From contig NZ_CP126740.1 of the NCBI RefSeq assembly GCF_030246925.1, forward strand, positions 2,790,001 to 2,854,000: 64,000 bases of DNA, given 5' to 3'. Origin of the DNA: Microbacterium sp. zg-Y625. Lineage in GTDB: Bacteria; Actinomycetota; Actinomycetes; Actinomycetales; Microbacteriaceae. Position 1 is the first letter of the stretch; every line of letters begins with the position of its first letter. A program made the position numbers and the translations under genes. The notes beneath the pieces were generated by a model. That model made no database searches. It was given only the letters and a program-made list of their open reading frames with translations, and had not been told where the DNA came from. Positions 49,596-64,000 of the stretch are shown here, piece by piece.

Positions 49596-49636
49596 TTGCG
49601 GCGCGACGGTTTGTCCACTAATTTTGAAACGATTCA
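49596..49636 (+). promoter_or_regulatory. rhaM promoter TTGCGG-N17-TAATTT fused to operator TGAAACGATTCA
   Basis: The -35 (49596-49601), 17-bp spacer and -10 (49619-49624) are followed immediately by the palindrome TGAAACGATTCA (49625-49636). The layout is the same as at 60482-60539. Confidence 0.8.
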
Positions 49637-49661
49637 CAGCCGCACACGTCAGGAGTCCTCG

Positions 49662-50045
49662 ATGACGAGCCCGTCACAGCCGCAGCGCGTCTGCTTCCAG
49701 CTTCAGGTCAAACCCGAGATGCTCGACGAGTACCTGCGGCGACACTCCCCGGTCTGGCCCGAGATGCTCGCCGAGATCGCGGCATCCGGTCGGCGCAACT
49801 ATTCCCTCTTCCTCGGCGAGGGCGGCCGCCTCACCGGCTACTACGAGACCGACGACGACGAGGCCGCCAAGGCGTACCTCGCGGCCTCGGAGGTCGCCTC
49901 CCGCTGGGAGGCCGAGATGGCCCCCTTCTTCGTCGGTCTCGAGGGCCGCCCGGATCAGGCCGCGCCGGCATTGCGCGAGGTCTTCAACCTGCACGACCAG
50001 CTGGCGGCATCCGCCACGCCCGACACGACAGAGAGCACCCACTGA
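49662..50045 (+). CDS. rhaM: L-rhamnose mutarotase
   Basis: 127 residues, normal for RhaM. RVCFQLQVKPEMLDEYLRRH and an acidic GRLTGYYETDDDEA stretch match the family, which interconverts alpha- and beta-L-rhamnose for the isomerase. ATG 49662 follows AGGAG at 49651. The stop overlaps rhaI by 1 nt (TGATG), so the two are coupled. It is controlled by the operator just upstream. Confidence 0.92.
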   Translation: MTSPSQPQRVCFQLQVKPEMLDEYLRRHSPVWPEMLAEIAASGRRNYSLFLGEGGRLTGYYETDDDEAAKAYLAASEVASRWEAEMAPFFVGLEGRPDQAAPALREVFNLHDQLAASATPDTTESTH

Positions 50046-51211
50046 TGAGCATCCTCTCCCCCGCCATCCTCACCGAGCTCGAGGGCCAGGGCATCGAGCT
50101 GCCCAGCTGGGCGTTCGGCAACTCCGGCACCCGCTTCCGCGTGTGGACGACCGAAGGCACGCCCCGCGACCCCTTCGAGAAGATCGCCGACGCCGCCGAG
50201 GTCAACCGCCTCACCGGGCTCGCCCCCTCGGTCGCCCTCCACATCCCGTGGGACAAGGTCGACGACTACGGCGTGCTGCGCCGCCACGCCGAGGACCTCG
50301 GCGTGAAGCTCGGCACGATCAACTCCAACACGTTCCAGGACGAGGACTACAAGTTCGGCGCCCTCACGCACGAGAACGAGGCGATCCGCCGCAAGGCCAT
50401 CGACCACCACATCGAGTGCATCGACGTGATGGATGCCACGGGCTCGCGCGACCTGAAGATCTGGCTCGCCGAAGGGTCGAACTACCCCGGCCAGACCGAC
50501 ATGCGCGCCCGCCAGGATCGCCTGCAGGACTCGCTGCAGCAGATCTACGCCCGCCTGTCCGGCGAACAGCGCCTGGTGCTGGAGTACAAGTTCTTCGAGC
50601 CGTCGTTCTACCACACCGACGTTCCCGACTGGGGGACGTCCTACGCCCAGGTCGCCGCGCTCGGCGAGCGCGCCATGGTGTGCCTCGACACCGGCCACCA
50701 CGCCCCGGGCACGAACATCGAGTTCATCGTCATGCAGCTGCTGCGCCTCGGGAAGCTCGGCTCGTTCGACTTCAACTCGCGCTTCTACGCCGACGACGAC
50801 CTGATCGTCGGCGCCGCCGACCCGTTCCAGCTGTTCCGCATCCTGTTCGAGGTCATCCGCGGCGGAGGGCTCAACAACCCCGACGTGGCGTTCATGCTCG
50901 ACCAGTGCCACAACATCGAGGCGAAGATCCCCGGCCAGATCCGCTCCGTGCTGAACGTCCAGGAGATGACGGCCCGCGCGCTGCTCGTCGACCGCGACGC
51001 CCTGGCGGCGGCGCAGAGCGCGAACGATGTCCTCGGCGCCCAGGCCGTCTTCATGGATGCCTTCTACACCGACGTGCGCCCGGCGCTGGCCGAATGGCGC
51101 GAGTCGCGCGGCCTGCCGGCCGACCCGATGGCCGCCTACGCCGCCTCGGGCTACCAGCAGAAGATCGAGGCCGAGCGCGTCGGCGGCACGCAGGCCGGCT
51201 GGGGCGCCTGA
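50045..51211 (+). CDS. rhaI: L-rhamnose isomerase (non-E. coli type)
   Basis: 388 residues, close to the RhaI group from Pseudomonas and Bacillus. Metal-binding regions include LEYKFFEPSFYHTDVPDW and CLDTGHHAPGTNIE, with a later FDFNSRFYADDD loop. It converts L-rhamnose to L-rhamnulose. It overlaps rhaM by 1 nt and the next hydrolase gene by 1 nt, so all three are likely coupled. No FGGY kinase follows here; the RhaB-like kinase is in the minus-strand operon at 52930. Confidence 0.92.
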   Translation: MSILSPAILTELEGQGIELPSWAFGNSGTRFRVWTTEGTPRDPFEKIADAAEVNRLTGLAPSVALHIPWDKVDDYGVLRRHAEDLGVKLGTINSNTFQDEDYKFGALTHENEAIRRKAIDHHIECIDVMDATGSRDLKIWLAEGSNYPGQTDMRARQDRLQDSLQQIYARLSGEQRLVLEYKFFEPSFYHTDVPDWGTSYAQVAALGERAMVCLDTGHHAPGTNIEFIVMQLLRLGKLGSFDFNSRFYADDDLIVGAADPFQLFRILFEVIRGGGLNNPDVAFMLDQCHNIEAKIPGQIRSVLNVQEMTARALLVDRDALAAAQSANDVLGAQAVFMDAFYTDVRPALAEWRESRGLPADPMAAYAASGYQQKIEAERVGGTQAGWGA

Positions 51212-52077
51212 TGGCCCACGCCGTCCGGGACCGCACGCTCGACGGGCCGCATGGTCCGCTGGGCGTGCGGACCTACGCGCCCGCCGACGGGGCACGCGTG
51301 GGTCTCGTCTGGGCGCACGGCGGCGGATTCGCCGGCGGCGACCTCGACATGCCCGAAGCGCACTGGGTCGCCGGGCAGCTCGCCGACCGCGGCATCGCGG
51401 TGGTGTCGGTCGACTACGCCCTGGCGCCCGTGCCCGCAGGCTGGACCATGCCTCCCGCCGGGCACACGCGCGAACGCGTGCACTACCCGCTGGCATCCGA
51501 GGAGGTCGGCTTCGCGTTCGCGTGGGCCCTCTCCTCGGGCCTCGCCGACGGCCCGTGGGCCCTCGGCGGCGCGAGCGCCGGGGCGAACCTCGCCACCGGC
51601 GCGGCGCTGCGCCTCGTGCACACCGGCGGGCCGGTGCCCGCCCTGGTGGTGCTCGCCTACCCCACCCTGCAGGCCGTGCAGCCGCCGGCCGACGCCGAGC
51701 TGCGCGCGCTCCTGGCTGCCCAGCCCGACGCCGACCGCTTCGGGGCGGACGTCGTGCGCACCATGTACGAGAACTACCTCGGCGGCCCGCTCGACGCCGC
51801 CGACGCCTACGCCATCCCCGGGATCGCCACGACCGCACAGCTCATGGGCTTTCCCCCGGTGCTCATGATCAACGGCGAGGCCGACGAGCTGCGTATGTCG
51901 GGCGAGGCCTTCGCGCGCTCACTCGCCGCTGCCGGCGTCGCGGTGGATGCCGTCACCGAGCGCGGCACCCAGCACGGCCATCTCAACCGCCCCGCCGAGC
52001 CCGCGGCATCCCTCTCCATCGAGCGCATCGCCGCCCGCCTTCACACACTGTCCCCTGGCGATACCTCGATGCGGTGA
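51211..52077 (+). CDS. HSL-family alpha/beta hydrolase in the rha operon
   Basis: 288 residues. The oxyanion motif HGGG is in VWAHGGGFAGGD, the nucleophile Ser in GGASAGANLA, the Asp in GEADELRMSG and the catalytic His in THQHGHL-like QHGHLNR. These are features of the hormone-sensitive-lipase group. Coupled to rhaI by a 1-nt overlap, it may remove acyl groups from rhamnose-derived oligomers or glycosides. It converges on the aldolase gene across a 28-bp gap that holds a GGCGCC/GGCGCC hairpin (52078-52092). Confidence 0.85.
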   Translation: MAHAVRDRTLDGPHGPLGVRTYAPADGARVGLVWAHGGGFAGGDLDMPEAHWVAGQLADRGIAVVSVDYALAPVPAGWTMPPAGHTRERVHYPLASEEVGFAFAWALSSGLADGPWALGGASAGANLATGAALRLVHTGGPVPALVVLAYPTLQAVQPPADAELRALLAAQPDADRFGADVVRTMYENYLGGPLDAADAYAIPGIATTAQLMGFPPVLMINGEADELRMSGEAFARSLAAAGVAVDAVTERGTQHGHLNRPAEPAASLSIERIAARLHTLSPGDTSMR

Positions 52078-52105: not shown

Positions 52106-52882
52106 TCAGCCGCTCGTGCCCGCGAGCGTCGCACGGCGCTCCCGGAAGTCCGGTCGATCGAAATAGCCGGCGATCGTCTCAGGGCTCAATGGCGCGACAC
52201 CGCCCGCCGCGCGCGCACCGAGACGCACGCGGGCACTCTTGACCGCCATCAGCGAGATCGCCTCAGCGCCTGCCGCGGTATCCGAGATCGCGACGATCCC
52301 GTGGTTGCCCAGAAGCACGAGCGATGGCAGCTCGCCGTTGCGCTGCACGTACGAGTCGAGCTCGGCCAGGAACACCCGGCCCAGTTCCATGCCGGGCTGC
52401 GCGTAGGGCACGTACATGCTGCGCCCCAGGATCATGAACTCCTCCGAATAGACGGGTTCTGCGAACGCCTGCTCCGCTTCGGCGCTGGCCAGGAGTGCCA
52501 CGACCTGCGTGGGATGGGTGTGCGCGACGAAGCGCGCCGTCCCGAATGCCCTCACCGCCGCGTGGACGAGCGACTCGATCGACGCGCGCACAGTGCGCCC
52601 GCCTGCCTTGCCCGCGGTGAGCGCAGTCGTCAGGGCATGCTGGTCGGCTTCGGGACTGCGCAGCAGCTCCAGCAGTCGCGGCACATCGACCGAGACGAAA
52701 TCCTCGGGGCCGGCCTCGGCCATGGACGACCCTGATGCCTTGACCACCATGGTGGTCGGGTCCACAAGCTCGCTGGTGTTCCCCTCCGCCAAGATGACGA
52801 GGTCTCGCTCGGGCAACCCCAGACGGCGGGTGAGGCCCAGCAGCTCGGGCGTGACGGCGGCGGGGTCGATACGGGCGGTCAT
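52106..52882 (-). CDS. Class II (zinc) aldolase/adducin-family protein
   Basis: 258 residues. The N-terminal part has GNTSELVD and KASGSS phosphate-binding loops; Zn ligands appear as HTHPTQ plus a later GNHGIV His. The family contains L-fuculose- and L-rhamnulose-1-phosphate aldolases, which cleave ketose-1-phosphates to DHAP and an aldehyde. It is the last gene of the minus-strand operon, 47 bp after the kinase. A second, fused aldolase for rhamnulose-1-phosphate lies at 62539, so this one may use a different substrate. Confidence 0.85.
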   Translation of the reverse strand: MTARIDPAAVTPELLGLTRRLGLPERDLVILAEGNTSELVDPTTMVVKASGSSMAEAGPEDFVSVDVPRLLELLRSPEADQHALTTALTAGKAGGRTVRASIESLVHAAVRAFGTARFVAHTHPTQVVALLASAEAEQAFAEPVYSEEFMILGRSMYVPYAQPGMELGRVFLAELDSYVQRNGELPSLVLLGNHGIVAISDTAAGAEAISLMAVKSARVRLGARAAGGVAPLSPETIAGYFDRPDFRERRATLAGTSG

Positions 52883-52929
52883 GGTGGTTTCCTCTCGGAG
52901 TGGGGACGGGGGCGGGGACGCGAGCCGTG

Positions 52930-54348
52930 TCAGCGCGGCTCGTACCGGACGAGATCGTGGGTGTGGCGGACCAGGGTCCGCAGATCGGCGAGCGTGCCGT
53001 GGAGGACTCCAACGGTGCGCGCCTGGACGAGGATGCTTCCCAGCGCGGTGGCCTCGACGGGGCCGGCGAGCACCGGAAGCCCGCTGAAGTCCGCCGTCCG
53101 CTGGCACAGCAGCGCGTTCTGCGCACCCCCGCCGACGATGTGCACGCAGTCGACGGGAGAGCCGGAGATCTCCCCGGCACGGCGCACGGCCTGCGCGAAC
53201 GCGTGCGCCAGGGATTCCACGATGCAGCGCGCAACAGCAGGGATGCCGTGAGGTGGTTCGATCCCCCTGTCCAGACACCAGCGGGCGATGCGGGCGGGCA
53301 TGTCACCCGGCGGGAGGAACTCGGGGTCGTCCACGTCGATGAGGGGCACAGCGCCCGTCACCTCGGCCGCCTGCGCGAGCAGCTCGGAGAGGCGGATGAC
53401 CTCTCCCCGGCGCTCCCATTCCCGCACCGCCTCACTGAGGATCCACAACCCCATGACATTGCGCATCAGGAGGGTCTTGCCGTCCACGCCCGCCTCGTTC
53501 GTGAAGCCGGCTTCGCGAGCGGCGTCGCCCAGTTCCGGCGCGGGCCGCTCCACACCGACCAGACCCCAGGTGCCGCACGAGACGAAGGCCGAGCGTTCCG
53601 ACGCCAGTGGTACCGCCACGACGGCCGACGCGGTGTCGTGCGACCCCGCCGCCACGACCTGCACAGCGTTGTGCAGCCCCGTCACACGGACGACGTCGGG
53701 GCGCAGCGCGCCCAGCGGCGTGCCGGGGTCGACCAGCTCGGGCAGCAGTCCCGGCGCCGTCCCGGACGCGGCCACCAGCGCCCGGTCCCACTGTCGGGTC
53801 CGCGCGTCCAGCATCCCGGTTGTCGAGGCCATCGTCCGCTCCGCGAAGCGGGCCCCACTCAGCCAGTACGTGAAAAGGTCGGGGACGAGCAGCACGCTCT
53901 CGGCGACTTCCAGCAGTCCGTCCTCGGCCTCGGCGGCCAACTGGTAGATCGTGTTGATCGGCATGTCCTGGATGCCGGCGACGCGGTACTGCTGCGCGGC
54001 AGGCATGCGCGACTGCACGGTGGCGACGACGCTGGCTGTGCGGCCGTCACGGTAGTGCACCGGGTTCGACAGCAGCCTCCCGCCGCGCAGTAGCGCGTAG
54101 TCCACGCCCCACGTGTCCACGGCGACGGCAGCCAGCCGCGGGTACTCCCGGCCCGCCTCCCGCAACCCCGTGATGGCGCCCTCGAACAGCGCCAGCACGT
54201 CCCAGTGCAACCGAGATCTGACCTGCACCGGCCGATTGGCGAAGCGCCCGAATGAGCGCAGCGCGAGGCTCTCCGGCGCGACCTCGCCCACGATGACCCG
54301 CCCGCTGCTGGCACCGAAGTCCAGCGCGGCGACCGCAGTGGGGGTCAC
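52930..54348 (-). CDS. rhaB: FGGY kinase, rhamnulokinase-type
   Basis: 472 residues. LDFGASSGRV at the N terminus is the RhaB ATP-binding motif, VAVDTWGVDYALL and a YRDGRT region match E. coli RhaB, and SHDTASAVVAVP plus SCGTWGLVGVE and HIVGGGAQN form the actin-fold ATP site. It should phosphorylate L-rhamnulose or a similar ketose at O1. The start is GTG 54346-54348 with a GGTGAGGG ribosome site, 10 nt after the ThuA-like stop. It is the only rhamnulokinase seen here and could serve both the rhamnose pathway and this operon. Confidence 0.82.
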   Translation of the reverse strand: MTPTAVAALDFGASSGRVIVGEVAPESLALRSFGRFANRPVQVRSRLHWDVLALFEGAITGLREAGREYPRLAAVAVDTWGVDYALLRGGRLLSNPVHYRDGRTASVVATVQSRMPAAQQYRVAGIQDMPINTIYQLAAEAEDGLLEVAESVLLVPDLFTYWLSGARFAERTMASTTGMLDARTRQWDRALVAASGTAPGLLPELVDPGTPLGALRPDVVRVTGLHNAVQVVAAGSHDTASAVVAVPLASERSAFVSCGTWGLVGVERPAPELGDAAREAGFTNEAGVDGKTLLMRNVMGLWILSEAVREWERRGEVIRLSELLAQAAEVTGAVPLIDVDDPEFLPPGDMPARIARWCLDRGIEPPHGIPAVARCIVESLAHAFAQAVRRAGEISGSPVDCVHIVGGGAQNALLCQRTADFSGLPVLAGPVEATALGSILVQARTVGVLHGTLADLRTLVRHTHDLVRYEPR

Positions 54349-54358
54349 CGCGGCGCCC

Positions 54359-55108
54359 TCACCGGCTCTCCCGGGCGAGCCAGGAGATGAGCTGCTGCCA
54401 CATCGGCCCGTAGCCCTCCCACTGCAGGAAGGATTCGGGCAGCCAGTGCGGGCCCATGTCGCTCGCGAACGCCGCTGAGCGACCGGCGCCGACCTCTCCC
54501 ACCGCCAGCAGCGGGCGGTCGCCGATCCGCGCGAGCACCTGGGACGCCTTCCGGGCTTGCAGCCGGTGATACCCGAGCACGGGGGGCCAGTTCCCTCCCA
54601 GTCCTTGCGTGACCGGGTGGTCGTCGACGGCCGTCGGCACAGCTCCCTCCGGCGTCTCCTCCCGGTCGTCACCGGCCTCCATGACAACCGGGAGGACCTC
54701 CGCGAGCGGAGTGTTCCGATAGTTCGCCTTGGCTTCGATGCCCTGGAAGCTCAGGTATCCCCCCACCATCAGCAGCGCTCCGCCCGACCGCGTCCACTCC
54801 GCCAGCATCTGGAGCCGGTTGGGGGCTGTGCGGCCCTGCGAGAACACCTTCGGCGGGAGCAGGAGGGTGTTGGCGCCGATGTCGCTGAGCACGACGACGT
54901 CCACCTCGGCCAGTCCCGACGCATCGAAGGGGAAGTCCGTGGCTGCAACGTGATTGGGCTGGAACGAGACGGCATGCCCTCCGGCCTGCACGGCCGCGAT
55001 GAAGGAGTCCGCTCCCTCCTCGTACACCGATGTCACGAAGGAGTCGAATCCCTTGGTGTGGATGGAAGTGGTCGACCAGGACTCGCCGGCCAGCAGTATG
55101 CGCGCCAT
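54359..55108 (-). CDS. Glutamine-amidotransferase-like (ThuA/DUF1355-type) protein
   Basis: 249 residues. The Rossmann-like N terminus (ARILLAGESWSTTSIHTKGF) and GGALLMVGGYLSFQG resemble class-I glutamine amidotransferase folds of the ThuA or cytoplasmic DUF1355 type. The canonical Cys-His-Glu triad is not evident: the GG-S-F elbow has Tyr-Leu-Ser rather than Cys. It lies between the RpiB-like and kinase genes (25 bp and 10 bp). Members often sit in sugar-uptake operons, but the function is unknown. Confidence 0.7.
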   Translation of the reverse strand: MARILLAGESWSTTSIHTKGFDSFVTSVYEEGADSFIAAVQAGGHAVSFQPNHVAATDFPFDASGLAEVDVVVLSDIGANTLLLPPKVFSQGRTAPNRLQMLAEWTRSGGALLMVGGYLSFQGIEAKANYRNTPLAEVLPVVMEAGDDREETPEGAVPTAVDDHPVTQGLGGNWPPVLGYHRLQARKASQVLARIGDRPLLAVGEVGAGRSAAFASDMGPHWLPESFLQWEGYGPMWQQLISWLARESR

Positions 55109-55133
55109 GTCGTAATGCCTTTCGCCGTGCCGG

Positions 55134-55697
55134 TCAGTATGCGAGGCCGCGCGGCTGCGCCCCCAGGGGCGCCTCCTGTGCGTCAGGCACCTGGAAGCCG
55201 TTGGCGCGGTAGGCCTCGTAGTCGAACCGCTCGCACTCCTCGTAGCCGATGCGGTGGTACTCCGCGAAACCGTCCCACTCCTCATAACCGTCACCGAAGG
55301 AGTGGTCCAGGAACGCGTCGGCCATCGCCATGCCCAGCCGCGGCCCCACATAGAAGGCGCCCATCGCGAGCAGGTTGCAGTTGTTCGCCGTCGCCGCTCG
55401 CTGAGCGGCGGGCGCGCTCTCAGCGACGGCAGCATGGACGTGAGGGACCTTGCTGGCTGCGACGTGGATACCCATCCCCGTGCCGCAGAACGCCAGCGCC
55501 TTCTCGTACTGGCCCTCGGCGATCTGCGCGCCCAGCATGAACCCGACCCGGTGATACATCGGCACACCGTCCAAGGAGGGCGTGAGGTCCTCGACCGTCC
55601 AGCCTCGCTCCTGGAGGTGAGCCTTCACGGCCTCCTTCAGCGGGAAGCCTGCGAAGTCCGCTCCCACCACGACGTGGCGGTCCTTGGTCAGTTTCAT
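55134..55697 (-). CDS. RpiB/LacA/LacB-family isomerase with changed active site
   Basis: 187 residues, longer than typical RpiB (about 150). The active-site Cys is C71 in FCGTGMGIHVAASKVP, and the anion-hole Asn lies near N106 in ATANNCNLLAMGAF. The usual D-H-A-G motif reads D14-F15-A-G, so the His used with phosphate and ring opening is Phe. A C-terminal acidic/aromatic extension follows residue 145. It may isomerise a non-phosphorylated or unusual sugar. It overlaps the upstream permease gene as ATGA. Confidence 0.8.
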   Translation of the reverse strand: MKLTKDRHVVVGADFAGFPLKEAVKAHLQERGWTVEDLTPSLDGVPMYHRVGFMLGAQIAEGQYEKALAFCGTGMGIHVAASKVPHVHAAVAESAPAAQRAATANNCNLLAMGAFYVGPRLGMAMADAFLDHSFGDGYEEWDGFAEYHRIGYEECERFDYEAYRANGFQVPDAQEAPLGAQPRGLAY

Positions 55698-56734
55698 GCG
55701 TCTTTGCCTTTCCATCGGAAGAATCGATTGAGGTTGCCCTTGCGGTCCCATTGGTTGACGACGATCACCAACAGCAGCACTGCTCCCCAGATGAGGGGCC
55801 GGTAGAAGCTGCTGACCTGCGGGAATGTGTTCAGCAGGGAGGACAGCACCTGCAACACGACGACGGCCAGGACGACTCCGGACAGCCGGCCGGACCCACC
55901 ATTGGGGTTGATGCCGCCCAGCACCACGATCAGGACGGCCAGCAGGGTGTACGTCGAGCCGTAGTCCGCCTTCGCGGAGTTGTAGTTCGCGAGCATCACG
56001 AGTCCCGCGGCCGAAGCGAGCACACCCGAGAGCATGTAGGTCCGGATCGTGAGGCTGGTGGTCTTCAGGCCGCTGAAGGATGCCGCAGTCTCGTTGGACC
56101 CGAGCATGTACAGCTTGGTTCCGAACGCCGTCTTGTACATCAGCAGCCCGACCAGCACTGTCGCGACGACGAAGATGATGAGCGGCATGGGGATCAGGCC
56201 GAAGAGCCTGCTGGCCATCACCTCCCCATACTGCGGCGGCAGGCCGCTGGTGGGCTTCCCCCCGCTGATGATGACCGCGATCCCGGTGAAGAGCTCGAAA
56301 GTACCGAGCGTCACCAGGATCGCAGGGATCCGGACCTTGGCCACCAGGAAGCCGTTGAGCGCGCCGGCGAGCGCGCCCACCAGCAGCGAGAGGCCGATCG
56401 CCGCGACCAGCGCGACGTAGCCCTGTCCGGCGTCGGAACCCACCGGCGCGATCCAGAGCATGAGAGTCGCGCTGCCGATGGCGGTCATGTTGGCCACGCC
56501 CACCACCGAGAGGTCGATGCCTCCGATGACCATGGCGAGCATGACTCCGAGGGCCATCAGACCGAATTCCGGGAACTGGATCGCCATGGACTGCCACGTG
56601 GGCAGGCTGAAGAAATTCTCCGTCTTGACCAGGGCGAAGAAGGCGAGCAGGACGACCAGCACGGCGGCCAGGCGCATCACATGAGGATCGCCCGTCACCC
56701 GCCGCTGGGGCCGGGATGTCATAGTGGCGGTCAT
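55694..56734 (-). CDS. CUT2-type sugar ABC transporter permease (second)
   Basis: 346 residues with about nine or ten membrane helices starting near VMRLAAVLVVLLAFFALV. LGSNETAASFSGLKT is the RbsC-type ATPase-contact loop, and NPNGGSGRLSG is another family mark. ATG 56734 follows TGAGAGGAAG. It pairs with the permease at 56748 to form the heterodimeric channel. The stop overlaps the RpiB-like start as ATGA, tying uptake to that enzyme. Confidence 0.9.
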   Translation of the reverse strand: MTATMTSRPQRRVTGDPHVMRLAAVLVVLLAFFALVKTENFFSLPTWQSMAIQFPEFGLMALGVMLAMVIGGIDLSVVGVANMTAIGSATLMLWIAPVGSDAGQGYVALVAAIGLSLLVGALAGALNGFLVAKVRIPAILVTLGTFELFTGIAVIISGGKPTSGLPPQYGEVMASRLFGLIPMPLIIFVVATVLVGLLMYKTAFGTKLYMLGSNETAASFSGLKTTSLTIRTYMLSGVLASAAGLVMLANYNSAKADYGSTYTLLAVLIVVLGGINPNGGSGRLSGVVLAVVVLQVLSSLLNTFPQVSSFYRPLIWGAVLLLVIVVNQWDRKGNLNRFFRWKGKDA

Positions 56735-56747
56735 TGCGGTCTTCCTC

Positions 56748-57758
56748 TCAGGCGAACGCGACGGTGCGCTTGCGCACACGGGTGAGCTGAATTGCGGAGA
56801 TCGCGGTTCCCACGATGATCAGAACGCCGAGCGCGAAGCCCTGCCAGAACGTCGGGATGCCGACCAGAATCATGCTGTTCTGCACGATCACGATCAGCAG
56901 CGTGCCCAGCATCGCGCCGGTGAGCGTCCCCGTGCCTCCCGTGATCGCCGCGCCGCCCAGGACCACCGCGGCGATGACCATCAGCTCCATGCCGAGCAGA
57001 TTGGTCGGATGCATCTGGTCCATCATGCTGGTGCGGACCAGTCCCGCCAGGCTGGCGATGACGCCGACGATGACGTACAGCCAGAACTTGGTGGCGCGCA
57101 CGTTGAAGCCGGCCCGGGCAGCAGAACTCTCGTCGCCGCCGAGGGCATACACACCCCGACCGAATGTCGTGTAGCGCAGCAGCACGAACGCCGCGACGAG
57201 CACCCCCACCAGGATCAGGAATGCCACGGGCATGTTGGAGGTGAGCCCCGAATCGGGGTTGGTGGCTACGAACAGCGTCGCTCGACCGAACTCGCTCATA
57301 CCGGCGGGGATGGTGGGGATCTGCACGGAGCCCAGCGCCCCCTGCATGAATCCTGAGAACACGTTCGCAGTGCCGAGGGTGATGATCAGGACGGGGACGG
57401 CGAATCGGGCGGTGAACAGGCCGTTGAACGCCCCGAGGAGTGCCCCGAACACCACCACGAGAGCCAGCGGCACCCAGATGCTCCCGCCGTAGCCGGCATC
57501 CACCAGGAGACGGGTGGTCGCGTACACCGACAGCGAAGCCAGCGCGGGAAAGGAGACGTCGATGCCTCCGGAGACGAGCACCATGAATGCGCCGACGGCG
57601 AAGATCCCGGGGACGATCATGGCGTTAGCGATGTCGACCAGGTTGTTCGCGGTGAAGAACTGACCGCTCCTGGCCTGGATGACGACGCTGAGCACGACGA
57701 TCACCAGGAGCAGATAGAACTCGTTGGATTTCAGGAGTTTCCGGCTCGTTGCCTTCAT
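56748..57758 (-). CDS. CUT2-type sugar ABC transporter permease (first)
   Basis: 336 residues with about nine membrane helices; VLVSGGIDVSFPALASLS and LGGDESSAARAGFNV are RbsC/RhaP-type motifs. It forms the membrane channel with the second permease and receives sugar from the binding protein at 59356. The gene starts 1 bp after the stop of the ATPase gene, so it is translationally linked. Confidence 0.9.
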   Translation of the reverse strand: MKATSRKLLKSNEFYLLLVIVVLSVVIQARSGQFFTANNLVDIANAMIVPGIFAVGAFMVLVSGGIDVSFPALASLSVYATTRLLVDAGYGGSIWVPLALVVVFGALLGAFNGLFTARFAVPVLIITLGTANVFSGFMQGALGSVQIPTIPAGMSEFGRATLFVATNPDSGLTSNMPVAFLILVGVLVAAFVLLRYTTFGRGVYALGGDESSAARAGFNVRATKFWLYVIVGVIASLAGLVRTSMMDQMHPTNLLGMELMVIAAVVLGGAAITGGTGTLTGAMLGTLLIVIVQNSMILVGIPTFWQGFALGVLIIVGTAISAIQLTRVRKRTVAFA

Positions 57759-57759
57759 C

Positions 57760-59274
57760 TCAGTGCTCCTCTTGCTGAAGGGTCGCGTCCTGGGTCATGA
57801 GCGCGGTGAGCTCCGCGTCATTGGTCGCGGCGGGGTCGATCTCGGCGACGATGCGGCCGGCGTTCATCACGAGCACACGGCTGCAGTTGTGGAGGACTTC
57901 CGGGATGTCGTCGGAGATGATGATGACGGCCAGCCCTTCCGCGGCCAGCTCTCGCAGCACTCGGTGGATGTCGTGCTTGGAGCCGATGTCCACCCCGACG
58001 GTCGGCCCGTTGAGGATGAGGACGCGCGGCTTCGTCGCCAGCCACTTCGCCAGCACGATGCGCTGCTGGTTCCCGCCCGAGAGGGTGCTCGCTGCGTTCT
58101 CCGGGTTGGGCGTGGCGATCCGCAGGTCCTCGATCCACCGCTGCGCCTCGGCTCGCGCTCGGCGCTGGTCGAAGACCCCCCACTTCGATACGAAAGCGTC
58201 GATCTCGGAGATGACGATGTTGGAGCCGATGGAGCGCTCGAGGAACAGCCCCTCCGTGAGGCGGTCCTCCGGGACGTACCCGATTCCGTGCCCGATCGCG
58301 TCGCGCACCCCATGGAGGTGCACTGGCGCGCCGTCGATGTGGATCGCACCGGCATCCGGTTGCAGCGCACCGAAGAGGGCCAGCGCGAGTTCGGTCCGCC
58401 CGGAGCCCAGCAGCCCCGTGATCCCGAGGATCTCTCCCGGGCGCAAGGTCAGGTCGACCCCGGTGAAGCCGCCCTCGAGAGTGAGGCCGATCGTCTCCAG
58501 CACGGGCTCTGCGGTCCGTGTCTCGGCGAGGAACCGGGTCTCCTCGAACTCGCGGCCGGTCATGTACGCCGAGAAGCTCCGGTGGTCCAGTTCCTCAGGC
58601 AGGCAGGTGATGACGTGCTTTCCGTTGCGGATGATGGTGAACCGCTCGCAGATCTCGAAAACCTCTTCCAGCTTGTGACTGACGAAGAGGGTGGCGATGC
58701 CGCGCGATTTGAGGTCGAGGATGATGCGGAACAGCGCCGCGACCTCGCGGCGCGTCAGAGCTGTCGTCGGCTCGTCCATGATGATCAGTCGCGCGTCGCT
58801 CATGAGGGCACGGGCGATCGCGATGAGCTGCTTCTGGGCGACCGGCAGCCGCTCCACCTTCTCGTCAAGATCGATCTGGACGTCGATCTTCGCCAGCGCG
58901 TCCGCGGCGATCCGCCGCATGCGCCGCCAGTTCACGAACGTGCGCCTTTCGGCCAGCTCGCTCGTCAGCGCGAGGTTCTCCATCACGGACAGGTTCGGGA
59001 ACACCGAGAAGTCCTGGTAGATGACCTGCACGCCGTTGGCGATCGCGTCCATGGGGCTCAGCTGCGTGAACTCGCGGCCGTTGAGCTCGATCACGCCGGC
59101 ATCGGGTGAGTGCACGCCGGAGATGACCTTGATGAGCGTCGACTTGCCGCTGCCGTTCTCCCCGGCGAGGCAGTGGATCTCCCCCGGCGCGATCTCGATC
59201 GAGATGTCGGTGAGGGCCTGCACTCCGGCGAAGGCCTTGCTGACGCCGCGTACCGCGATGACGTTGTCCACCAT
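57760..59274 (-). CDS. CUT2-type sugar ABC transporter ATP-binding protein (two ATPase domains)
   Basis: 504 residues with two tandem ATPase domains, as in RbsA/MglA. The first has Walker A GENGSGKSTLIK, an atypical signature (VAQKQLIAIARAL) and Walker B LIIMDEPT. The second has a degenerate Walker A (GLLGSGRTELALAL) but a good LSGGNQQRI signature. It energises uptake by the two permeases. A stem-loop separates it from the binding-protein gene. Confidence 0.92.
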   Translation of the reverse strand: MVDNVIAVRGVSKAFAGVQALTDISIEIAPGEIHCLAGENGSGKSTLIKVISGVHSPDAGVIELNGREFTQLSPMDAIANGVQVIYQDFSVFPNLSVMENLALTSELAERRTFVNWRRMRRIAADALAKIDVQIDLDEKVERLPVAQKQLIAIARALMSDARLIIMDEPTTALTRREVAALFRIILDLKSRGIATLFVSHKLEEVFEICERFTIIRNGKHVITCLPEELDHRSFSAYMTGREFEETRFLAETRTAEPVLETIGLTLEGGFTGVDLTLRPGEILGITGLLGSGRTELALALFGALQPDAGAIHIDGAPVHLHGVRDAIGHGIGYVPEDRLTEGLFLERSIGSNIVISEIDAFVSKWGVFDQRRARAEAQRWIEDLRIATPNPENAASTLSGGNQQRIVLAKWLATKPRVLILNGPTVGVDIGSKHDIHRVLRELAAEGLAVIIISDDIPEVLHNCSRVLVMNAGRIVAEIDPAATNDAELTALMTQDATLQQEEH

Positions 59275-59315
59275 CGACGCGTCCTTTCGTTTGTCATGGG
59301 CAACCGGTGCCCGGT

Positions 59316-59344
59316 CCGGGGCAGGGTCGGACGCCCTGCCCCGG
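59316..59344 (-). terminator. Intercistronic stem-loop after the binding-protein gene
   Basis: CCGGGGCAGGG (59316-59326) pairs perfectly with CCCTGCCCCGG (59334-59344) around a 7-nt loop. It sits between the binding-protein and ATPase genes, where such hairpins usually allow partial termination or protect the upstream mRNA, giving more binding protein than transporter. Confidence 0.75.
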
Positions 59345-59355
59345 TGAGGGACGGC

Positions 59356-60402
59356 TCAGAATCCGTAGTCGTCCACGTTGTCCTGATTGATGACAACCCA
59401 GCCGTTGCCTTCGAGCACCTTGTCGCTGCCCTCGGCGAAGCGCATGTCTTCGTAACCGGCAACGCCGAGGTCGACCCCGTCGGCGATCTCCTCGCCGTCG
59501 AGGATCATCTTGGCGAGAGACGCCATTGCGTAGCCGGCATCGGCGGGGTCCCACAGCGTGAGGCTCTTGACCAGCCCTTTCTGGAGGATCGCCTTGTTGG
59601 CGGCGGGCATGCCGGTGCCGGTGACGAACACCTTGCCGGTAAGGCCGAGCTCCTCGATCGCGCGTGCGACGCCGGGGGCATCGAAGGAGGAGGTACCGAC
59701 GAAGCCGGAGATCTCGGGGTACTTCTTGAGCATCTCCTTCGCCACCTGGTAGGCAACTTCTCCGTCGTCCTGCGACTCCACCCGCGGCTCGGCTTCGAGA
59801 AGGGTCATACCGGGGTACTCCGCGAGCTGCCGGGCCACTGCACCGTCCGCCCATTCGTTGTGGGAGGCGTTGGTGACGTGGCCCACCATCGTCGTGTAGA
59901 CGCCTTCTTCGCCCATGGCCTCGGCAAGGTTGTCCATGATGAACCCGCCGTAGTCGCTGTTGTTGAACGCCTCGATGTCGTACATCGTGTTCTGCTGACT
60001 GGCGCCCTCGTGGGTGACGACGACGATGCCGGCGTCGATGGCCTGCTTGAGGACGGTCTCGAGCGCCCCAGGGTCGACCGGGACGACGCCGATCGCATCC
60101 ACGCCCTGCGCGATGAGGTCCTGGATCACCTGCGCCTGCATCGTGGCATCGGTTTCTGCGGGGCCCTTCTGATAGACGTCGAGGCCCGTGTCCGCGGCGA
60201 ATCGCTTGACACCCTCGTCCATGCGGACGAACCACGGGTTGGTCGCATCCTTGGGAACGATCGCGATCGTGTAGTCGCCGTCTCCCGCGTCTCCCGCACC
60301 CGCGTCGGGCGAGCCGCTGCCGCCCGGGGTGCACGCCGCCAGACCGAGTGTCAGGACTGCGGCCAAGCCGAGAGCCAGGCCGGCAAAGCGTCGTTGCTTC
60401 AT
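59356..60402 (-). CDS. CUT2-type sugar-binding lipoprotein
   Basis: 348 residues. A lipoprotein signal ends in LAAC (LTLGLAACTPGG), followed by an acidic linker and a periplasmic-binding domain of the RbsB/RhaS class: IVPKDATNPWFVRMDEGVKR at the N terminus, VTHEGASQQN and TGTGMPAANKAI later. The lipid anchor places it on the outer face of the membrane. It defines the substrate of the operon, probably an L-deoxysugar or other monosaccharide; I cannot name it. Strong operators lie upstream. Confidence 0.9.
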   Translation of the reverse strand: MKQRRFAGLALGLAAVLTLGLAACTPGGSGSPDAGAGDAGDGDYTIAIVPKDATNPWFVRMDEGVKRFAADTGLDVYQKGPAETDATMQAQVIQDLIAQGVDAIGVVPVDPGALETVLKQAIDAGIVVVTHEGASQQNTMYDIEAFNNSDYGGFIMDNLAEAMGEEGVYTTMVGHVTNASHNEWADGAVARQLAEYPGMTLLEAEPRVESQDDGEVAYQVAKEMLKKYPEISGFVGTSSFDAPGVARAIEELGLTGKVFVTGTGMPAANKAILQKGLVKSLTLWDPADAGYAMASLAKMILDGEEIADGVDLGVAGYEDMRFAEGSDKVLEGNGWVVINQDNVDDYGF

Positions 60403-60481
60403 GTTGTTCTCCTTGATGCCTCTGCGGGTCGCGTGAGCGCGCGGGGCCGGAGCCGGAGTGCGCCATTGCGTGTGTAAGGTT

Positions 60482-60539
60482 TGAAGCGCTTCATTCTCTG
60501 AAGCGCTTCAAAAGTACACAGACCGCCGAGCGCCCGCAA
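60482..60539 (-). promoter_or_regulatory. Transporter promoter TTGCGG-N17-TACTTT with two TGAAGCGCTTCA operators
   Basis: On the minus strand -35 TTGCGG (60534-60539), a 17-bp spacer and -10 TACTTT (60511-60516) lead straight into a perfect 12-bp palindrome (60499-60510). A second identical palindrome lies at 60482-60493, with centres 17 bp apart. Cooperative LacI-type repression is likely; the divergent LacI gene at 60605 is the natural regulator. Confidence 0.88.
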
Positions 60540-60604: not shown

Positions 60605-61648
60605 GTGAGCAAGGCAGACCTGCCGCCCCATGACCCCGTGCGCCTCCGGGACGTGGCCGAACGCGCAGCCGTGTCGACAGGGACGGTATCCAACACCATC
60701 AACCACCCCGAGCGCGTCCATCCCCGCACGCGCGCGGTCGTGCTCGATGCGATCGAGGCGCTCGGATTCGTGCCGAACCAGCAGGCTCGGGTGCTGACCG
60801 GTGCAGCCAGCAACATCATCGGGCTCGTGGTGCTCGACGTGGAGAGCCCCTTCTACATGGAGACGGCGCATGCGATTGAACGCGCCGTGCGCGAGTCCGG
60901 TCACGTCGTGATGCTGTGCAACTCCGAAGGAGAGCCGGTCCGGGAATCGGAACTGCTGACGATGCTCGCCGCCCAGCGGGTGCGTGGCGTGCTGCTGGCT
61001 CCGGCCGCGGCCGAGATCGGCGCGACCTGGCACCGGCGGCTTCCGCAGAACCTCCCCGTCGTGCTGCTGGACTTTCCCGGCGGGCCGAAGCAGTGCTCCG
61101 TGGCCGTCGACAACGTCGCCGGCGGAAGGCTGGGAGTACGCCATCTACTCGATCTCGGCCACGAGCGGATCGCGTTCGTCGGCGGATCCCCCTCGCTGCG
61201 TCAGTTCGCCCAACGGTCCAGCGGTGCGCGGGAAGAACTCGCCGCTGCAGGGCTGGACCCACGCAGGGCTCTCGTCGAGGTGAGCACGTCGGGGCTCGGT
61301 ATCCGCGACGGGCAACGCGCCGTCGAGCTCCTTCTGCAGTCCGACCTGCCAGACGCGATCTTCTGCGGCAACGACATGCTGGCGTTCGGCGTGTACCGCG
61401 GGCTCGCCGCGGCCGGCATCCGCGTGCCAGAAGACATCGCACTGGTTGGCTACGACGACATTGATTTCGCGAAGGATTGGATCGTCCCCCTCACCTCTGT
61501 GCGACAGCCGATCGACGAGCTCGGTCGGCGGGCGGCACAGCTGCTGATCGAGCATTCGTCGCGAGACGAGGCGCACGAGCACCGCCAGCTGACCCTCCAG
61601 CCCGAGCTCGTCGTACGCAGATCAAGCGATCGGCGAGCAACGGACTGA
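60605..61648 (+). CDS. LacI-family regulator of the minus-strand sugar operon
   Basis: 347 residues. The HTH reads LRDVAERAAVSTGTVSNTINHPE, sharing the GTVSN recognition helix with the regulator at 48530; the effector domain has IFCGNDMLAFG and IALVGYDDIDFAKDWIVPLTS. GTG 60605 follows GGAGG at 60593-60597. It is divergent from the ABC transporter operon with paired TGAAGCGCTTCA operators between, so it probably represses that operon and itself. Confidence 0.92.
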   Translation: MSKADLPPHDPVRLRDVAERAAVSTGTVSNTINHPERVHPRTRAVVLDAIEALGFVPNQQARVLTGAASNIIGLVVLDVESPFYMETAHAIERAVRESGHVVMLCNSEGEPVRESELLTMLAAQRVRGVLLAPAAAEIGATWHRRLPQNLPVVLLDFPGGPKQCSVAVDNVAGGRLGVRHLLDLGHERIAFVGGSPSLRQFAQRSSGAREELAAAGLDPRRALVEVSTSGLGIRDGQRAVELLLQSDLPDAIFCGNDMLAFGVYRGLAAAGIRVPEDIALVGYDDIDFAKDWIVPLTSVRQPIDELGRRAAQLLIEHSSRDEAHEHRQLTLQPELVVRRSSDRRATD

Positions 61649-61693: not shown

Positions 61694-61711
61694 CGAGCCA
61701 GCGAGGACGTG

Positions 61712-62470
61712 ATGGCGAGAACGAGCACATTGCGGGGCGAGGAGCGCCGTCACGCCATCATCGAGCGGGTGAACCGGGACGGCTCAGCCGGTCTGGACGA
61801 GTTGGCGGACGAGCTGCGAGTGTCGTCGATGACGGTGCGACGCGACCTCGACGATCTCGAGGCCGACGGACTGCTGCGGCGGGTCCGCGGTGGCGCCGTC
61901 GCGCTGAACGGCCCGCGTCAGTTCGGCGAGCGCCGGGCGGTCCGCACGCGCGCGAAGCAGGTCATCGCAGCGAAGGCCGCGGCCTTTCTCCCCACGTCGG
62001 GCGCCATCGCCCTGGACGCCTCCAGCACCGTCGGCACGCTCGCCGCGATGCTCGCGGCACACGCCGGACTCGTCGTTGCAACCAACTCTTACGAGAATTT
62101 CACGACTGCCAATGCGAGCGATGTCAGAGCGGTGCTGATCGGCGGGGAGCTGGATGACGCCACGGGCAGCTTCGTCGGCAAGGTCGCCTGCGACGCGGCG
62201 TCGTCGATGCTCTATCGGAGATTCTTCACCTCCGCCGCCGCCTTGGATCCTCGCCAGGGCAGCTCCGAGGCGTCGCTGGCAGAGAGCCAGGTCAAGCGCG
62301 CCTTTGCCGAACGCAGCCAGCACGTCGTGCTCTGCGTGGATTCCTCCAAGCTCGGCGGCGTCGCAGTGTCCGCAGCCTTCCGACTGCACGAGGTGGAAGC
62401 ACTCATCACGGAGCTCAGCCCAGAGGACCCGCGCTTAGACGCCTACCGCGAGGCGACCGACGTCCGCTGA
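61712..62470 (+). CDS. DeoR/GlpR-family regulator
   Basis: 252 residues. The N-terminal HTH reads GLDELADELRVSSMTVRRDLDDL with wing GLLRRVRGGAV, followed by the DeoR sugar-phosphate sensor domain (IALDASSTVGTLAAML and VLIGGELDDATGSFVG). It precedes the bifunctional aldolase gene by 68 bp on the same strand. DeoR-type proteins serve as rhamnose regulators in several bacteria. ATG 61712 was chosen over GTG 61709 because the AGGA site at about 61703 fits. It likely senses rhamnulose-1-phosphate or a related phosphate. Confidence 0.88.
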   Translation: MARTSTLRGEERRHAIIERVNRDGSAGLDELADELRVSSMTVRRDLDDLEADGLLRRVRGGAVALNGPRQFGERRAVRTRAKQVIAAKAAAFLPTSGAIALDASSTVGTLAAMLAAHAGLVVATNSYENFTTANASDVRAVLIGGELDDATGSFVGKVACDAASSMLYRRFFTSAAALDPRQGSSEASLAESQVKRAFAERSQHVVLCVDSSKLGGVAVSAAFRLHEVEALITELSPEDPRLDAYREATDVR

Positions 62471-62538: not shown

Positions 62539-64000
62539 ATGACGAACCCCGCAGCCGCAGACCTCATCGCCCGCAGCAACCGCCTCGGCGCCGACCCGAA
62601 GAACACCAACTACGCCGGGGGCAACACCTCCGCCAAGGGCACCGAGACCGACCCGGTGACGGGCGAGCCGGTCGAGCTGCTGTGGGTCAAGGGCTCCGGC
62701 GGCGACCTCGGCACCCTCACCGAGAAGGGCCTGGCCGTGCTGCGCCTGGACCGCATGCGGGCACTCGTGAACGTCTACCCTGGCGTCGACCGCGAAGACG
62801 AGATGGTCGCGGCCTTCGACTACTGCCTGCACGGCAAGGGCGGCGCCGCCCCGTCGATCGACACCGCCATGCACGGCCTGGTGGATGCCGCGCACGTCGA
62901 CCACCTGCACCCGGACTCGGGCATCGCGATCGCGACCGCCGCCGACGGCGAGAAGCTCACCTCCGAGATCTTCGGCGACAAGGTCGTCTGGGTGCCGTGG
63001 CGGCGCCCCGGCTTCCAGCTGGGCCTGGACATCGCCGAGATCAAGGCGCAGAACCCGCAGGCGATCGGCTGCATCCTCGGCGGCCACGGCATCACCGCGT
63101 GGGGCGACACGTCGGAGGAATCCGAGCGCAACAGCCTGTGGGTCATCGACACCGCCGCCGCCTACATCGCCAGCAACGGCAAGGCCGACCCGTTCGGCGG
63201 CGTGCGCGCCGGCTTCGAGGCGCTGCCCGAGGCCGAGCGGCGCGCCCGCGCTGCCGCCCTCGCGCCGACGATCCGCGGCATGGCATCCACCGACAAGCCC
63301 ATGGTCGGCCACTACACCGACAGCGACGTGGTGCTGGACTTCCTCGCCTCCGAGAAGGCGCCCTACCTTGCAGGTCTCGGCACGAGCTGCCCCGACCATT
63401 TCCTGCGCACCAAGGTCAAGCCGCTGATCCTCGACCTGCCCGCCACGGCGACGGTCGAGGAGCAGCTGGCGCGCCTGCAGGAGCTGCACGCCGAGTACCG
63501 CGCCGACTACCAGGCGTACTACGACGCGCACGCGGATGCCTCGAGCCCCGCAATCCGCGGCGCGGACCCGCTCATCGTGCTCGTCCCGGGCGTCGGCATG
63601 TTCAGCTACGGCGCGAACAAGCAGACCGCGCGCGTCGCCGGCGAGTTCTACGTCAACGCGATCAACGTCATGCGCGGCGCCGAGGCGCTGTCGACCTACT
63701 CCCCCATCTCGGATGCCGAGAAGTTCCGCATCGAGTACTGGGCGCTGGAAGAGGCGAAGCTGCAGCGGATGCCGAAGCCCAAGACCCACCAGGGCCGCAT
63801 CGCGTTCGTGACGGGCGCGGCATCCGGCATCGGCAAGGCCATCGCGACCCGCCTGGCGGCCGAGGGCGCGTGCGTCGTCGTGGCCGACCTCGACCTCGAG
63901 AAGGCGCAGGCCGCGGCCGCCGAGCTCGGCAACGCCGACGTGGCGATCGGGGTCGCGGCGAACGTGGCGGATGCCGCGGGCGTGCAGGCCGCCATCGACG
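62539..64000 (+). CDS. rhaEW: Partial: bifunctional rhamnulose-1-phosphate aldolase / L-lactaldehyde dehydrogenase
   Basis: The gene runs off the window after 487 codons. The N-terminal part is a class II aldolase (NYAGGNTSAKG, WVKGSGGDLGTLTEKG, Zn ligands in HLHPDSGIAIA and GGHGITAWG). From residue about 415 a short-chain dehydrogenase begins with VTGAASGIGKAIA. This fusion is the RhaEW enzyme of actinobacteria and bacilli: it cleaves L-rhamnulose-1-phosphate to DHAP and L-lactaldehyde, then oxidises the latter to lactate. ATG 62539 follows AGGAAG. It completes rhaM, rhaI and rhaB. Confidence 0.93.
   Translation, partial: MTNPAAADLIARSNRLGADPKNTNYAGGNTSAKGTETDPVTGEPVELLWVKGSGGDLGTLTEKGLAVLRLDRMRALVNVYPGVDREDEMVAAFDYCLHGKGGAAPSIDTAMHGLVDAAHVDHLHPDSGIAIATAADGEKLTSEIFGDKVVWVPWRRPGFQLGLDIAEIKAQNPQAIGCILGGHGITAWGDTSEESERNSLWVIDTAAAYIASNGKADPFGGVRAGFEALPEAERRARAAALAPTIRGMASTDKPMVGHYTDSDVVLDFLASEKAPYLAGLGTSCPDHFLRTKVKPLILDLPATATVEEQLARLQELHAEYRADYQAYYDAHADASSPAIRGADPLIVLVPGVGMFSYGANKQTARVAGEFYVNAINVMRGAEALSTYSPISDAEKFRIEYWALEEAKLQRMPKPKTHQGRIAFVTGAASGIGKAIATRLAAEGACVVVADLDLEKAQAAAAELGNADVAIGVAANVADAAGVQAAID

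Follow-up and report, generated by a model that had tools for sequence, protein, structure and literature searches.

In the ribose 5-phosphate isomerase B (RpiB) of Leishmania, His11, Arg113, Arg137 and Arg141 contact or anchor the phosphate, Cys69 serves as the base and His102 in ring opening (PMC4783025). Two relatives of this enzyme have been connected with unphosphorylated substrates: DhuI, an RpiB-family isomerase of 212 residues acting on a uronate (PMC12838403), and SqwI from sulfo-transketolase sulfoglycolysis, a PF02502 protein proposed to use a sulfonated tetrose, the activity of which is not directly measurable according to that report (PMC9594981). D-Ribulose has been described as a nutrient only recently, with the Rbl system of Citrobacter rodentium and the Aau system of enterohaemorrhagic Escherichia coli (EHEC); the EHEC solute-binding protein (SBP) AauA, PDB entry 9I1M, has a KD of 1.98 µM for D-ribulose as against 598 µM for L-arabinose (PMC12307932). 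Here, these systems are compared with an operon of Microbacterium sp. zg-Y625 that occupies positions 52106-60402, on the minus strand, of a 64,000-nucleotide stretch of contig NZ_CP126740.1 (2,790,001 to 2,854,000), the whole of which is referred to as the window.

The operon encodes, in this order and with small gaps or overlaps, the SBP, the ATPase and the two permeases of a CUT2 transporter, an RpiB-like isomerase (RpiBl), a PF07090 protein, a RhaB-like FGGY kinase (kin) and a stand-alone class II aldolase (ald2); every gene was located as the original prediction had described it. As in Rbl, an FGGY kinase and an isomerase stand beside a CUT2 transporter, and the SBP contacts match those of the Rbl and Aau systems (tested against AauA); in Rbl, however, the isomerase carries a KpsF-like domain and is dispensable for growth, the kinase is a D-ribulokinase, and no aldolase is described (PMC12307932). 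The L-rhamnose and L-fucose type pathways share with the operon the proposed order of steps (isomerase, FGGY 1-kinase, class II aldolase) and the kinase and aldolase superfamilies, but employ RhaI or FucI where the operon has an RpiB-like isomerase; the operon also has its own regulator and SBP class. Judged from sequence, the operon may serve to break down a free pentose, most likely one of the D-ribose/D-ribulose pair, by an isomerise-first route with a phosphate-independent RpiB; the probability of this reading is put at roughly 0.43.

Active site of RpiBl and sugar pocket of the SBP

RpiBl scores above the curated cut-off of PF02502 (LacAB_rpiB), and its structure model adopts the RpiB fold, a match that was not counted as evidence on the substrate. 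With the RpiB/LacA/LacB family (PF02502, IPR003500), it shares the fold, the catalytic Cys, the CGTG/CGSG loop and the Asn after the ring-opening position; it differs by lacking His at the phosphate and ring-opening positions, by the loss of the recognised phosphate Arg and by its C-terminal part, which is longer and hardly varies within the subfamily. It stays below the RpiB equivalog cut-offs (71 of 138.65 bits for TIGR01120, 86 of 168 for TIGR02133), and the PF02502-type NCBIfam models that it matches, all below cut-off, are phosphosugar isomerases. In the alignment, H10, R83, H99 and R110 of the E. coli enzyme correspond to F15, H88, A104 and F115, and R133 and R137 to Y138 and, past an alignment gap, E154; the replacements of H10, H99 and R110 are also seen against 3HE8/3PH3. 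The phosphate-binding His and Arg residues of RpiB sensu stricto (equivalents F15, F115, Y138 and the post-gap E154) are missing together with the ring-opening His, and the catalytic Cys71 is kept in its CGTG loop. The original prediction had correctly noted the retained Cys71 and the Phe in place of the DHAG His, and had suggested a non-phosphorylated substrate; the losses exceed this His-to-Phe exchange, and that of the recognised phosphate contacts lends the suggestion support. As the grip on the phosphate appears to be lost, the substrate of RpiBl is probably a five-carbon sugar in free form, for example ribulose or ribose.

Among 120 listed RpiBl proteins (the window protein included), C71 and F15 are invariant, position 104 is Ala or Gly throughout and F115 is found in 117; H78, H88, R50 and R100 are likewise invariant. 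The 120 are clusters, each at least 72% identical to RpiBl, that represent several thousand member sequences and are named in the sources only as RpiB/LacA/LacB family or ribose 5-phosphate isomerase B. A PF02502 paralogue of the window genome retains the GxRVVG Arg that RpiBl has lost. In a plasmid search with RpiBl (352 records), the identity was always below 60% among the matches listed.

The closest PDB relatives of the SBP are 5BRA (251 bits) and, with 177 bits each, 9I1M and 3D02; RhaS and LsrB entries reach at most 92 bits, and the best curated model, RhaS TIGR02637, gives 145 bits against a cut-off of 342. The D-ribulose contacts of AauA, Lys37, Trp43, Glu118, His167, Glu196 and Ser223 (PMC12307932), align with K51, W57, E132, H181, D212 and S239 of the SBP: five are identical and one is a Glu-to-Asp exchange, and both residues that hold the hydroxyl named C5 in the AauA structure are included. 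All six are invariant in the 29 orthologues (window plus 28 loci); among the eight distant paralogues of the 37-row alignment, two have five of the contacts and six have one or two. AauA is matched by alignment at four of the six positions by 5BRA and at two each by RhaS (5BQ3) and LsrB (3EJW). By sequence, the pocket is of the D-ribulose type, and D-ribulose or D-ribose is the predicted ligand. Autoinducer-2, which an LsrB-like SBP and an FGGY kinase might suggest, was rejected, as the SBP shares two of six contacts and kin scores 68 bits for LsrK versus 383 for RhaB.

Distribution, partner genes and putative operator

RpiBl, an accessory trait, was found (E<=1e-50) in 11 of 398 Microbacteriaceae-type genomes, in 26 of 200 from a second family of the same order and in 3 of 297 drawn from the order, the window genome counted; 11 named contigs, among them ones from Salinibacterium, Subtercola, Arachnia and Propionibacteriaceae, carry it too. 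In the 33 loci read besides the window (the named contigs and 22 further genomes), SBP, permeases and RpiBl lie on one strand in 28, which is more than chance. The exceptions are L021, without the SBP, L075, with a different transporter, and L019, L071 and L072, without this transporter type beside RpiBl. Relatives of kin and ald2 follow on the same strand in nine of the 33 loci (39 and 38% identity in L068), a PF07090 gene is nearby in 11 (on the opposite strand in two) and rhaEW in four. Since relatives of kin (E<=1e-30) occur in all 37 RpiBl genomes, their presence alone is uninformative. A relative of ald2 (E<=1e-25) occurs in 11/11 RpiBl genomes of Microbacteriaceae type versus 34/387 others, a count in which five of the 11 represent one genus and one genome, G331, has the relative about 21 kb from RpiBl. 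RhaI is present in only 24 of the 37 RpiBl genomes, and RpiBl is therefore not tied to rhamnose catabolism. The Salinibacterium-type loci carry the unit without a rhamnose gene near (four complete, one without the SBP), their genomes having rhaI elsewhere; in L016, from Salinibacterium, it lies between truA- and rplM-looking genes (by eye), and rhamnose genes are absent from the locus.

The partners around the constant RpiBl vary. In L077, the kinase is RhaB-like (174 bits) and the class II aldolase is a different one; L075 has an SBP of 40% identity with five of the six contacts, RpiBl and a XylB-like kinase (232 bits; cut-off 380), with no aldolase seen. A ribokinase relative is near RpiBl in 10 of the 17 Actinomycetaceae-type (second-family) loci, and in seven of these it precedes the SBP on the same strand; six of these locus relatives were scanned, of which three pass the ribokinase cut-off and three fail. 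Such relatives exist in all 18 genomes tested (one above the cut-off); as far as coordinates tell, those of G684, G709 and G746 lie at the RpiBl locus and the others do not. In G684 and G746, the relative at this locus is the sole ribokinase at E<=1e-30. If the ketose is converted either to a 1-phosphate, for which an aldolase is needed, or to a 5-phosphate, for which nothing further is needed, it is presumably a pentulose of the pentose phosphate pathway, and ribokinase and a XylB-like kinase as partners, the latter without an aldolase beside it, make an ordinary pentose a better candidate than a 6-deoxyhexose. The D-ribulose-type pocket and the native ribose/ribulose reaction of RpiB make the D-ribose/D-ribulose pair the simplest common answer.

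Several loci show further arrangements. In L071 (4195-12210), RpiBl stands beside rhaEW, a GH78-rhamnosidase-like protein, two ThuA-like proteins (by eye; no NCBIfam match) and an oxidoreductase, a rhamnoside-type locus with no CUT2 transporter; in L072 (8883-10296), RpiBl and an ald2 of 34% identity form a unit of two genes, and neither a kinase nor a transporter adjoins them. In L079 (10323-10691), a small macrodomain-like gene (by eye; no NCBIfam match) directly follows RpiBl, a possible hint that the sugar derives from ADP-ribose. G709 (L073, 13024-14759) has split transketolase genes downstream of RpiBl, PF07090 and the ribokinase relative. In the Salinibacterium-type locus L021 (6768-7913; contig CH672415.1), SBP and LacI genes were not found and the ATPase is truncated, apparently through decay or misassembly.

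In the window, kin gives 383 bits for the rhamnulokinase model TIGR02627 (cut-off 528), and its best PDB relatives are 4C23 (FucK) and 2CGJ (RhaB). The second RhaB-like kinase, which follows rhaEW just past the window end (G000:2854572-2856029) and is 57% identical to kin, is the better match to this model (406 bits), also below the cut-off. Nine kin and 11 RhaB-type sequences differ, by set thresholds, at ten positions, e.g. Ile131 for Phe in the GIQxxPxNT loop, which suggests a substrate different from that of the RhaB type. FucK/FucA-type enzymes act on D-ribulose and D-ribulose 1-phosphate. For ald2, the PF00596 cut-off is 22.2 bits; its best NCBIfam relatives are RhaE domains, all below cut-off (66 of 1014 and 61 of 568 bits for the two-domain models, 20 of 170 for the single-domain model), and phmmer gave no PDB match at E<=1e-3.

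The palindrome TGAAGCGCTTCA has two exact copies in the genome (3,259,775 bases), 17 bp apart and both in the gap between the LacI and SBP genes; its reversed control word occurs in one place. In the whole-genome and window scans, no exact copy was found at the rha genes; the next match in the window (2 mismatches) lies at 49625, near rhaM, and 25 of 100 shuffles yielded at least three window matches of this stringency. Among 29 SBP upstream regions (the window's included), the core of TGAAGCGCTTCA is also found in L022, L023, L069 and L070 and related palindromes in L074, L025, L026, L017 and L018, with no such palindrome seen in the other 19, to which nearly all Actinomycetaceae-type loci belong. 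LacI orthologues of 72-76% identity diverge from the operon in the Salinibacterium-type loci and in L069/L070. We infer that the pair is likely a private operator of the divergent LacI gene, whose product would control this operon and probably little else.

Proposed route and alternatives

The reactions, the substrates and the 1-position of phosphorylation that we infer are the following. The ABC transporter would import the free pentose, and RpiBl would interconvert free aldose and ketose, which corresponds to the RpiB reaction minus the phosphate; the RhaB/FucK-like kin would phosphorylate the ketose at C1, and ald2 would split the ketose-1-phosphate into dihydroxyacetone phosphate (DHAP) and an aldehyde, glycolaldehyde in the case of D-ribulose. 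More tentatively, and with the odds somewhat against it, RpiBl may found a phosphate-independent RpiB branch acting on free D-ribose/D-ribulose, within an isomerise-first pathway of Actinomycetota that would have interchangeable second steps: a pentulokinase, a ribokinase, or a 1-kinase together with an aldolase, the last of which would yield DHAP and glycolaldehyde and avoid the pentose phosphate pathway. If so, a housekeeping phosphosugar isomerase would have become a free-sugar isomerase by dropping the phosphate and ring-opening residues and keeping the base; the RpiBl subfamily would be assigned a function and would become a naturally occurring candidate for the catalysis of D-ribose/D-ribulose or related rare-sugar conversions. 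Among the papers listed on RpiB with non-phosphorylated sugars, on tetroses, and on D-ribulose with ribokinase and RpiB, none deals with this operon to judge from titles and abstract beginnings.

Several observations weigh against a unit for the D-ribose/D-ribulose pair. There is no one imported sugar for which all variants of the unit would require RpiBl: imported D-ribulose with a ketose kinase would bypass it, as would imported D-ribose with a ribokinase. A furanose substrate fits poorly with the missing ring-opening His, and the structure model is weak over residues 73-82, which belong to the active site. The SBP resembles AauA only moderately (177 bits), and a two-residue gap lies near the E196/D212 pair, so that D212 may shift by one. 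Both kin and ald2 are closest to rhamnose enzymes; the best models for the L077 aldolase are 3-oxo-tetronate 4-phosphate decarboxylase (138 bits) and then FucA types (at most 104), with ribulose-1-phosphate aldolase at 81 bits and all below cut-off. Seven of the 17 Actinomycetaceae-type loci have no ribokinase beside the unit; ribokinase relatives lie mostly away from the RpiBl locus in the 18 genomes, and that of the window genome likewise lies at another place and is not accompanied by a CUT2 permease of this type. In L019, L071 and L072, RpiBl occurs without this transporter, in the former two next to rhaEW. The cysteine-free protein that the original prediction had called ThuA-like, and that matches PF07090 (GATase1_like) instead, lies outside what the proposed pathway explains.

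A second route for L-rhamnose or another 6-deoxyhexose, with RpiBl as isomerase and kin and ald2 yielding DHAP and lactaldehyde, is unlikely. It would fit the 57% identity between the two kinases, the RhaE-like ald2, the RhaS model as the best curated match of the SBP, and the position of the operon inside the rha locus here and in L069/L070 and of RpiBl by rhaEW in L071 and L019; at the six contacts, however, RhaS and LsrB agree with the SBP in K and D only, the palindrome lacks an exact copy at the rha genes, the Salinibacterium-type loci hold the unit without rha genes near, and the ribokinase and XylB-like partners are hard to reconcile with it. The redundancy for rhamnose alone that had been predicted is borne out: rhaM, rhaI, rhaEW and rhaB form a full rhamnose set without the operon, which thus supplies a second isomerase, kinase and aldolase. 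In view of the private palindrome and the different SBP pocket, mere redundancy was rejected as the main explanation. A second sugar route apart from rhamnose, as first proposed, gains from the likely private operator and the Salinibacterium-type loci; among its candidates, four- and five-carbon sugars fit and a 6-deoxyhexose is not supported, and the term deoxysugar-like sits badly with an SBP pocket that matches a D-ribulose binder and with ribokinase and XylB-like partners.

That RpiBl still uses a phosphosugar via a new anion site (e.g. H78, H88, R50, R100), or is non-catalytic, is rather improbable: the invariance of these basic residues in all 120 listed proteins and the sub-threshold matches to phosphosugar isomerases speak for it, but phosphate contacts and ring-opening His are lost together with the base Cys kept, and DhuI (13% identity in the structural match; PMC12838403) and putatively SqwI (PMC9594981) are precedents for unphosphorylated substrates. 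Another free (2R,3R)-aldose, for example L-lyxose giving L-xylulose or D-allose giving D-psicose, is more improbable yet. The chemistry of RpiB prefers 2R,3R aldoses and RhaB/RhaE-type enzymes handle L-xylulose, which would suit such sugars, but a kinase alone (L075) or a ribokinase would not bring the ketose phosphates into central metabolism, and no further required enzymes were noticed to recur, a systematic search not having been made. The least probable of these readings is D-apiose or a similar branched furanose, which RpiBl would convert to apulose for phosphorylation by the kinase and cleavage by a transketolase. By our own reasoning, apiofuranose and ribulofuranose are similar in shape, and G709/L073 has the split transketolase genes downstream of its ribokinase relative; by the same reasoning, a class II aldolase could not usefully split apulose phosphate, the SBP gives only 29.6 bits against 5IBQ, which we take to be an apiose complex, and the transketolase pair was noticed in one locus only, without a systematic search. 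The D-apiose pathway is defined by an apiose isomerase, named ApsI (PMC13001218), an apulose kinase and an apulose-4-phosphate transketolase; a literature search on apiose isomerase and apulose returned no paper.

Four further candidates were dropped. For fucose, a kinase match of about 36% in Schaalia-type genomes sits in a FucI/FucU-looking locus (labels by eye); for tetritols, RpiBl reaches only 101 of 240 bits with the DerI model. Salvage of 5-deoxyribose is not supported by the ribokinase and XylB-like locus variants, and for sulfo-sugars, suggested by the SqwI precedent, no other sulfoglycolysis gene turned up, though none was searched for.

Features of the locus

Table 1. Genes and putative operators of the operon and its rhamnose neighbours (window positions).
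Feature	Position	Strand	Basis
CUT2 SBP, D-ribulose-type pocket K51 W57 E132 H181 D212 S239	59356..60402	-	PF13407; alignment to 9I1M/AauA
CUT2 ATPase	57760..59274	-	AraG/XylG/RbsA-type models, best ones below cut-off
CUT2 permease 1	56748..57758	-	GguB/RbsC-type models
CUT2 permease 2, true start may be internal	55694..56779	-	AraH-type models
RpiBl, without phosphate site, 187 aa	55134..55697	-	PF02502, 105 bits
PF07090 GATase1-like protein, no cysteine	54359..55108	-	324 bits to PF07090; relatives 3SOZ, 2GK3
kin, FGGY kinase, RhaB/FucK-like, proposed ketose 1-kinase	52930..54348	-	rhamnulokinase TIGR02627; PDB relatives
ald2, proposed ketose-1-phosphate aldolase	52106..52882	-	PF00596, 74.7 bits
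LacI-family regulator, divergent from operon	60605..61648	+	LacI/Peripla_BP_3
Two TGAAGCGCTTCA palindromes, proposed LacI operators	60482-60493 and 60499-60510	.	exact-match genome scan
rhaM and rhaI, rhamnose neighbours outside operon	49596-50045, 50045-51211	+	PF05336 (rhaM); RhaI orthologues
DeoR regulator preceding rhaEW	61709..62470	+	PF00455/PF08220
rhaEW, runs beyond window end	62539..63999	+	RhaB-like kinase next, outside window

The start of the aldolase gene is corrected in Table 1 from that of the long open reading frame (53278). The canonical rhaM, rhaI and fused rhaEW genes are all found alongside the operon, as had been predicted, together with the RhaB-like kinase outside the window; RhaI orthologues in other genomes are 68-82% identical. 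Directly 3' of rhaI (51214-52077), an alpha/beta hydrolase (PF07859) is encoded that may act as an esterase on acylated rhamnosides. Past the window, downstream of the rhamnose genes (L067, 5356-17982; G000:C1:2858355-2870981) lies a cluster resembling a contractile phage tail or injection system, with sheath, baseplate and gp25-like genes assigned by eye.

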